NCBI RefSeq assembly: GCF_026004055.1 | Contig: NZ_BPIJ01000002.1 | Coordinates: forward strand, 311,803-375,802 | Source of the DNA: Meiothermus sp. | GTDB lineage: Bacteria; Deinococcota; Deinococci; Deinococcales; Thermaceae | Reading direction: 5' to 3' | DNA length: 64,000 nt | Part shown: piece by piece, positions 60,066-60,309 of the stretch | Position numbering within the stretch: position 1 is the first letter of the stretch | How the letters are laid out: every line of letters begins with the position of its first letter | Notes under the pieces: generated by a model | What the model was told of the DNA's origin: nothing | What the model saw: only the letters and a program-made list of their open reading frames with translations | The model's database searches: none | Made by a program: the position numbers and the translations under genes

Positions 60066-60309
60066 TATAATCTTGGGTACCAAGAGGTCGGTATGGGAAA
60101 GAGCCTGGCGCTACCGGCAGTGATTGGCTCTCCCGAAACCTCGAGCCCGGTATACCAACAACTCCGCCAAGACCCTCTGCGGAGTTTTTTTGTTGGGGTC
60201 GGGAGGTTCCCCGTAGCAGCCCTTACCCAGGGCTGCGCGGACAAGAAAGCCTTTACCCAAGGCTTGGCAGGTCGGGCAAGCCGGACACCCCGGTAAGCCA
60301 GGAGGAAAC
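60066..60309 (+). promoter_or_regulatory. Promoter box and structured leader of the 2-oxoacid dehydrogenase operon
   Basis: A consensus TATAAT (60066-60071) precedes a leader of about 230 nt. In order it contains a hairpin (GAGCC/GGCTC with GGGA/TCCC, about 60098-60135), an intrinsic terminator (60160-60191), and two hairpins with the identical loop TTACCCA: GCAGCCC-loop-GGGCTGC (60216-60236) and AAGCCT-loop-AGGCTT (60247-60265). TTGACC at 60035 is 25 bp from the -10 box, too far for a normal -35. The arrangement suggests attenuation or a ligand- or protein-sensing RNA. Confidence 0.55.
60160..60191 (+). terminator. Intrinsic terminator inside the leader
   Basis: AACTCCGC and GCGGAGTT form an eight-pair stem with an 11-base loop, followed by a T-run to 60191. 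CCAACA before it and TGTTGG after it can pair as well, which offers an extended alternative fold. It lies 118 bp before the first gene. Confidence 0.75.

Follow-up and report, generated by a model that had tools for sequence, protein, structure and literature searches.

RESULTS

The hairpin leader of the bkd operon

The mRNA of the branched-chain 2-oxoacid dehydrogenase (bkd) operon of Meiothermus and its relatives carries a conserved, previously undescribed hairpin leader, which, as the comparison of leader sequences suggests, is probably a real gene switch. It is a cis-regulatory leader of a known kind with an undescribed hairpin motif, and it is known from one bacterial lineage. The features below are those of the window, by which we mean the whole stretch of Meiothermus sp. 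DNA that was analyzed (64,000 nucleotides [nts]).

60066..60071, plus strand: TATAAT, −10 box of the leader promoter
60093..60296, plus strand: leader open reading frame (ORF) of 67 codons, with its own Shine-Dalgarno sequence GAGGT at 60085-60089; translation MGKSLALPAVIGSPETSSPVYQ...TPR*
60111..60113, plus strand: CTA (rare leucine) codon, codon 7 of the leader ORF, proposed to be regulatory; the terminator stem lies about 16 codons downstream
60161..60191, plus strand: intrinsic terminator inside the leader ORF, ACTCCGC ... GCGGAGT, T-run at 60185-60191
60211..60240, plus strand: hairpin H1; outer helix 60211-60214/60237-60240, inner stem 60216-60223/60229-60236 (8 pairs), pentaloop UACCC at 60224-60228
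60247..60265, plus strand: hairpin H2; stem 60247-60253/60259-60265 (7 pairs), pentaloop UACCC at 60254-60258
60275..60299, plus strand: hairpin H3; outer helix 60275-60277/60297-60299, inner helix 60280-60284/60290-60294, loop NNANC (here ACACC); ends at the Shine-Dalgarno sequence
60300..60305, plus strand: Shine-Dalgarno sequence AGGAGG of the E1-alpha gene
60310..61419, plus strand: E1-alpha of branched-chain 2-oxoacid dehydrogenase (Pfam E1_dh)
61488..62462, plus strand: E1-beta, same operon (Transket_pyr and Transketolase_C)
62472..63863, plus strand: E2 acyltransferase, same operon (2-oxoacid_dh, E3_binding, Biotin_lipoyl)

E1-alpha is an orthologue of the Thermus thermophilus 2-oxo acid dehydrogenase (1um9, 1umb, 1umc, and 1umd). 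These entries, annotated as "2-oxo acid dehydrogenase alpha subunit," were its best solved relatives (E = 1.9e-163), followed by 2-oxoisovalerate dehydrogenases. The −10 box is conserved, with the same spacing to the leader ORF, in the leaders of Meiothermus, of genera g2 and g3, and of the Marinithermaceae, and its counterpart in Thermus is TATACT. No good −35 sequence was seen at 16 to 18 nt from the −10 box.

Two hairpins with a common loop had been described at 60216-60265 in an earlier note on this DNA. Both are there; every pair of the H1 inner stem and of the H2 stem is perfect, and the loops are 30 bases apart. When 60176-60309 was shuffled with dinucleotides preserved, a pair of hairpins with identical loops (stems of at least 6, loops of 5 to 7, spacing of 15 to 60) arose in 1 of 3,000 shuffles. 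H1 and H2 are the only example across the 64 kb of the window; the match on the minus strand is this same site. The seven-base loop TTACCCA that the note had reported is indeed identical in the two hairpins, but its invariant part is the pentaloop UACCC, and the flanking U-A is a covarying closing pair. In relatives this pair becomes C-G (leaders L015, L119, and L120) or U-G (L016). As this pair also switches to C-G, a pentaloop, YACCC, is the best reading of the loop. A third conserved hairpin, H3, is additional to the two in the note and adjoins the Shine-Dalgarno sequence of the E1-alpha gene. Mimicry of a tRNA anticodon by a seven-base UUACCCA loop was considered and rejected; in L016, L119, and L120, a C stands at the position corresponding to U33.

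Conservation and covariation of the hairpins

Leaders of the E1-alpha gene were collected from 50 genomes of Thermaceae (18 in the window's genus, 2 apiece in genera g2 and g3, 27 in g4, and 1 in g5), together with 20 leaders from more distant members of the order. We take g4 to be Thermus and family f4 to be the Marinithermaceae, a neighboring family, the names of genera and families coming partly from general knowledge. The earlier note had named absence of the hairpins or their loop from relatives, or stems without compensatory change, as grounds against its proposal. A YACCC hairpin precedes the E1-alpha gene in all 50 Thermaceae genomes, including all 18 of Meiothermus, and the stems compensate. 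It is also present in 5 of the 6 leaders of genus g14 of the Marinithermaceae. It was absent from all 6 leaders read in that family's remaining two genera (g12 and g13) and from 8 E1-alpha leaders sampled from two further families. Copy number varies: there are two hairpins in Meiothermus and g2, one in Thermus and g14, and one plus a UACAA variant in g3. Of the 48 distinct hairpins, 47 have a YACCC loop and the remaining one has UACAA, while the inner stem pairs swap among C-G, U-A, G-C, and G-U.

In the alignment of the 18 Meiothermus sequences, a three-hairpin model has 89.7% of its cells paired and two-sided changes at 12 of 27 pairs. Its covariation score is 0.277, compared with 0.176 for shuffles (none of 500 scored as high) and at most 0.155 when the model was slid along the alignment. 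H2 has 99.2% of cells paired and compensatory changes at 5 of 7 pairs; H3 has 95.8% of cells paired, and its alignment pair 84-94 is U-A in 9 sequences and C-G in 8. The outer helix of H1 is found in most relatives with compensatory changes, although some shifts of register between species make its pair counts weaker. The GGAGG of the E1-alpha Shine-Dalgarno sequence is invariant. The single hairpin of Thermus is built in two parts like H1: its inner part is the same, and its outer helix is compensated. It is followed, before the Shine-Dalgarno sequence, by an invariant GCGCCAMAAGCGC hairpin. We regard the YACCC hairpin array as an RNA structure that is under selection and is tied to the bkd operon.

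Several other features of these leaders were observed. The Thermus bkd leaders (L036-L063) have two near-invariant blocks besides the YACCC hairpin, GCGAAGGGAAAGTGGG at the 5' end and GCGCCAMAAGCGC ahead of the Shine-Dalgarno sequence. In the g14 leaders, extra hairpins with loops such as CGACC and UGACC surround the YACCC hairpin. L103 and L104 are apparently identical stretches in genomes G012 and G018, which belong to two genera, suggesting recent transfer. Long-range pairing of UUCC with GGAA around the hairpins was tried as a further structure and is not conserved.

RNA element, protein motif, or DNA operator

The window's leader ORF translates the two loops as ALTQG and AFTQG, and H1 stands in the same frame (..LTQ.. 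or ..FTQ..) in 16 of the 17 Meiothermus leaders that have the ORF. The hairpins could thus be a by-product of selection on a protein motif, A-L/F-T-Q-G, an explanation we find hardly credible. The spacing between H1 and H2 is 28, 30, 31, or 32 nt depending on the species, and the frame of H2 varies between species (it is different in L003, L013, L014, L018, and L019), yet the loop letters are fixed at all three codon positions. ACC is never replaced by another threonine codon, and the choice between CAA and CAG follows the opposite base. Moreover, the hairpin is kept where there is no ORF, in L017 and in Thermus. For these reasons the leader peptide is not what keeps the loop, and frame and spacing rule out the repeat as a protein-coding signal.

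Inverted repeats may also be operators for a transcription factor, and the imperfect palindromes do sit downstream of a promoter. However, the center of each is fixed while the arms vary, and their distance from the promoter differs greatly between genera while the distance from the start codon is similar. In the well-supported helices, that is, outside the weak outer helix of H1, G-U cells outnumber A-C cells by 20 to 5, an excess that points to plus-strand RNA. A DNA operator is therefore extremely improbable, and we consider the hairpin to be an RNA element, neither a protein motif nor a DNA operator.

Specificity of the hairpins and comparison with known RNAs

We searched for further sites with a pattern in ten genomes and with covariance models, one of the single hairpin in 16 genomes and one of the three hairpins in 111. 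In these searches, the E1-alpha leader was the top site in Thermus and in most Meiothermus genomes. No regulon was found: the other sites inspected lay inside coding sequences (at L/F-T-Q or P-Y-P codons) save for two or three isolated intergenic sites, e.g., L099 and L101 in G005, none of which recur. Paralogous E1-alpha genes have no hairpins upstream. A cmscan of the window's leader and five relatives' leader loci against Rfam 15 gave only weak chance matches, far below the gathering score, and we found no description of the motif, or of the regulation of the bkd operon in Thermus-type bacteria, in the open-access literature. The suggestion that this is an undescribed, operon-specific regulatory RNA is supported by the lack of an Rfam match, of a published account in that literature, and of a regulon.

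The earlier note had also pointed to guanidine-II (mini-ykkC) riboswitches, in which short G+C-rich hairpins likewise stand in tandem, with the same loop, close to a ribosome binding site. In guanidine-II RNAs, ACGR tetraloops dimerize loop to loop (PMC5486947). The resemblance goes no further than two hairpins with the same loop. The loop is YACCC rather than ACGR; dimerization through C-G pairs is not available to UACCC or UUACCCA, which have no G and are not self-complementary; and the hairpin precedes the bkd E1-alpha gene instead of genes for guanidine efflux or degradation. The bkd hairpin further differs in occurring once, twice, or with a third, different hairpin, at one operon in one lineage.

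Tandem hairpins with conserved loops, lying near a ribosome binding site and at one metabolic operon, could still be a riboswitch aptamer, with a branched-chain 2-oxoacid, acyl-CoA, amino acid, or thiamine diphosphate as the ligand and with access to the Shine-Dalgarno sequence controlled via H3. We think this quite unlikely: each hairpin has just five invariant bases, all in the loop, there is a single copy in Thermus, the loops are unable to pair with each other, and no further pathway gene was found to have the hairpin. Loops that are exposed, invariant, and single-stranded also make typical kissing targets, and the YACCC loops might be seed-pairing sites for a trans-acting RNA bearing GGGUR. 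That is a very improbable reading, given that no candidate partner was identified and that the GGGUA at the 5' end of some Meiothermus leaders, with which we also tried to pair the loops, is not conserved. A pseudoknot between the loop and the Shine-Dalgarno region was rejected as a general structure; GGGU is available in Thermus and absent in Meiothermus.

The hairpins share with the protein-binding leader hairpins of ribosomal-protein operons and with CsrA-type operators the fixed loop letters, the variable stems, and the closeness to the Shine-Dalgarno sequence. They differ from these in having no GGA in the loop and no matching Rfam family, and we know of no operator with a YACCC loop. The combination of constant loops, changing stems, and an adjacent Shine-Dalgarno sequence suggests recognition by a trans-acting factor, with a protein favored. 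The alternative is that the tandem hairpins are a constitutive 5' untranslated element that binds no ligand and serves mRNA protection, RNase processing, ribosome standby, or polymerase pausing, the loop being kept for the fold. Such a role would suit stable G+C-rich hairpins directly ahead of a Shine-Dalgarno sequence, as well as the lack of a regulon and the persistence of the hairpin in Thermus without the attenuator. However, a purely structural role needs neither a loop that is invariant in nearly all distinct hairpins nor the repetition of that loop, and we consider this explanation doubtful, though deserving of real weight.

The leader ORF and its terminator

The leader ORF of the window spans the terminator and the hairpins and stops just ahead of the E1-alpha Shine-Dalgarno sequence; its product has no Pfam match. 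An ORF start with a Shine-Dalgarno sequence was present in 17 of the 18 Meiothermus leaders, in each of the 4 leaders from g2 and g3, and in each of the 12 that were read from the Marinithermaceae. MPSARTPIVLILTIGLHPAAPPPGIA and MLKLSNTALVLIIGLLRLPRPGR are examples of the leader peptides. Codons 2 to 17 of 28 distinct leaders include 54 for leucine, of which 25 are CTA, versus 38 of 704 in the E1-alpha coding sequences (Fisher P = 2e-15, a value that is too small because the species are related). CTA occurs 25 times in frame and once in each of the other two frames. Although these counts lack phylogenetic independence, the leader codon that is CTA varies from clade to clade. Isoleucine is about doubled in the leader ORF (9.6% versus 4.7%). 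Compared with classical attenuators the regulatory codons are sparse: there is often one CTA, and in a few leaders there is none. As we read these leaders, their clearest link to branched-chain amino acids is the leader peptide with its leucine and isoleucine codons, not the hairpins.

An intrinsic terminator upstream of the hairpins had been proposed in the earlier note. It is real, at 60161-60191, but it belongs to a leader ORF which that note missed, and it sits inside that ORF. A simple terminator scan overlooked it; its loop is 11 nt. A terminator lies downstream of the leader start in 29 of the 33 leaders with a leader ORF, and in each of these 29 the ORF runs into or through the terminator. 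Leaders L014-L016 and L035 have no recognizable terminator, and L017 has no leader ORF. In Meiothermus and g3, the leader ORF often ends at or across the E1-alpha start, an arrangement that would couple translation.

Thermus leaders have kept the YACCC hairpin and lost the leader ORF and terminator, and leaders of the Marinithermus and Oceanithermus types have the leader ORF and terminator and no hairpin. From this distribution, it appears that the hairpin and leader-ORF modules need not work together. Because Thermus kept the hairpin and dropped the upstream module, the hairpin has a job of its own.

In the Marinithermaceae bkd leaders (L109-L120; those of g12 and g13 have no YACCC hairpins), runs of isoleucine, leucine, and valine lie directly ahead of the terminator inside the ORF. 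A helix between the leader Shine-Dalgarno sequence and the codons that follow it is clear in L013 and L032 and is no better than in shuffles in most species. No consistent antiterminator was seen in the bkd leaders.

Comparison with the ilvB attenuators

The ilvB leaders served as a control. All 7 that were read, from seven genomes of this lineage, have a CTA-bearing leader peptide that stops ahead of the terminator, and most have a G-run able to pair with the C-run of the terminator. The ilvB leader of the window's own genome (L271, about positions 2713-2788) and those of L272-L277 are classical branched-chain attenuators, with leader peptides such as MILSGRLTLALVGLVIIGPMGGWV, which has four CTA codons, and with the stop codon ahead of a CCCCCC/GGGGGG terminator.

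The bkd leader shares with leu and ilv attenuators, ilvB included, a short ORF rich in CUA and in isoleucine and valine codons ahead of an intrinsic terminator (PMC1183508). Regulatory codons for the operon's amino acid are thus present in the predicted bkd ORF. In contrast to the ilvB controls, no bkd ORF with a terminator stops ahead of it; the ORF passes through, and no comparable G-run was seen.

These comparisons bear on whether the upstream module could be a classical attenuator in which stalling at CUA favors an antiterminator, so that the operon is on when leucine is short. In favor of this are the CTA-rich classical ilvB attenuators of the same lineage, the likeness of the bkd and ilvB leader peptides (LVIIG.P), and, from general knowledge, a second use of the enzyme, as a source of primers for iso-fatty acids. 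We nonetheless hold it to be rather unlikely, since there is no G-run to pair with the terminator C-run as in ilvB, since the ORF passes through the terminator in all 29 leaders that have both, and since it would be unexpected for leucine shortage to turn on a catabolic operon.

DISCUSSION

The explanation that we favor, at somewhat less than an even chance, is that the bkd leader is a two-module cis-acting control, in which a run-through leader ORF and terminator would be combined with YACCC hairpins that act when bound by a trans-acting factor.

In the first module, a leader ORF with rare CUA (leucine) and isoleucine codons ahead of an intrinsic terminator continues through that terminator. 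The model for this geometry is the pyrBI operon of Escherichia coli, whose leader ORF, pyrL, extends through its terminator; pyrL senses UTP via polymerase pausing. The bkd leaders are alike in that the ORF reaches through an intrinsic terminator (29 of 29) and would differ in the signal, proposed to be the supply of leucyl-tRNA at the rare CUA codons ahead of the terminator. A trailing ribosome stops the pyrL terminator from forming (PMC5021804), and among the leucine codons, CUA is predicted to suit an attenuator best in E. coli (PMC1183508). On these two grounds, we infer that ample leucyl-tRNA would open the bkd operon. With leucyl-tRNA well charged, the ribosome would keep up with the polymerase, the terminator would stay open, and the catabolic operon would be made; with leucine short, the ribosome would lag at CUA and the terminator would form. 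This logic would be that of pyrBI-like run-through and the opposite of that of the classical ilv and leu attenuators. Being on with plenty and off with shortage would be sensible for a catabolic operon.

The second module consists of one or two YACCC hairpins and the third hairpin that abuts the Shine-Dalgarno sequence. Because they are located after the terminator, the hairpins would act on the read-through mRNA, most likely by affecting the start of translation or the stability of that mRNA. The YACCC loops would be bound by a factor acting in trans, for which an RNA-binding protein is the likeliest candidate, possibly a subunit of the enzyme acting autogenously; whatever is said here of what binds the hairpins we infer from their form. 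One point against this module is that most Meiothermus leader ORFs cross the hairpins, so ribosomes would unfold them. A broader proposal, that the YACCC array is a new operon-specific RNA receptor (binding a protein or a metabolite) joined in Meiothermus and its relatives to an inverted leucine attenuator, with the modules lost or kept independently, strikes us as speculative, and we would lean against it.

In Thermus-type bacteria, the branched-chain 2-oxoacid dehydrogenase provides the primers for iso-branched membrane lipids. The hairpin gives this operon a defined RNA element, strongly conserved and fixed in its loop, which is directly testable. In addition, one genome holds two attenuator geometries for the same amino acids, that of ilvB for synthesis beside that of bkd for breakdown. 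If the proposed logic is true, the same leader-peptide parts have been rewired and the sign of the response reversed.

The region upstream of the bkd promoter has features of its own. Between rlmH and the promoter (59884-60020) lies an interspersed repeat of about 130 bp that contains two perfect inverted repeats (arms of 15 and 16 nt). The genome has about 40 full or partial copies with 82 to 99% identity (74 match rows, many of which are the palindrome reversed). The repeat resembles a MITE- or REP-type element, and none was seen in the bkd leaders of relatives. At 56976-59300 is a gene for a Subtilase-family protease with a Big_2 domain and a fervidolysin-like prodomain, convergent with rlmH (59404-59838, minus strand).
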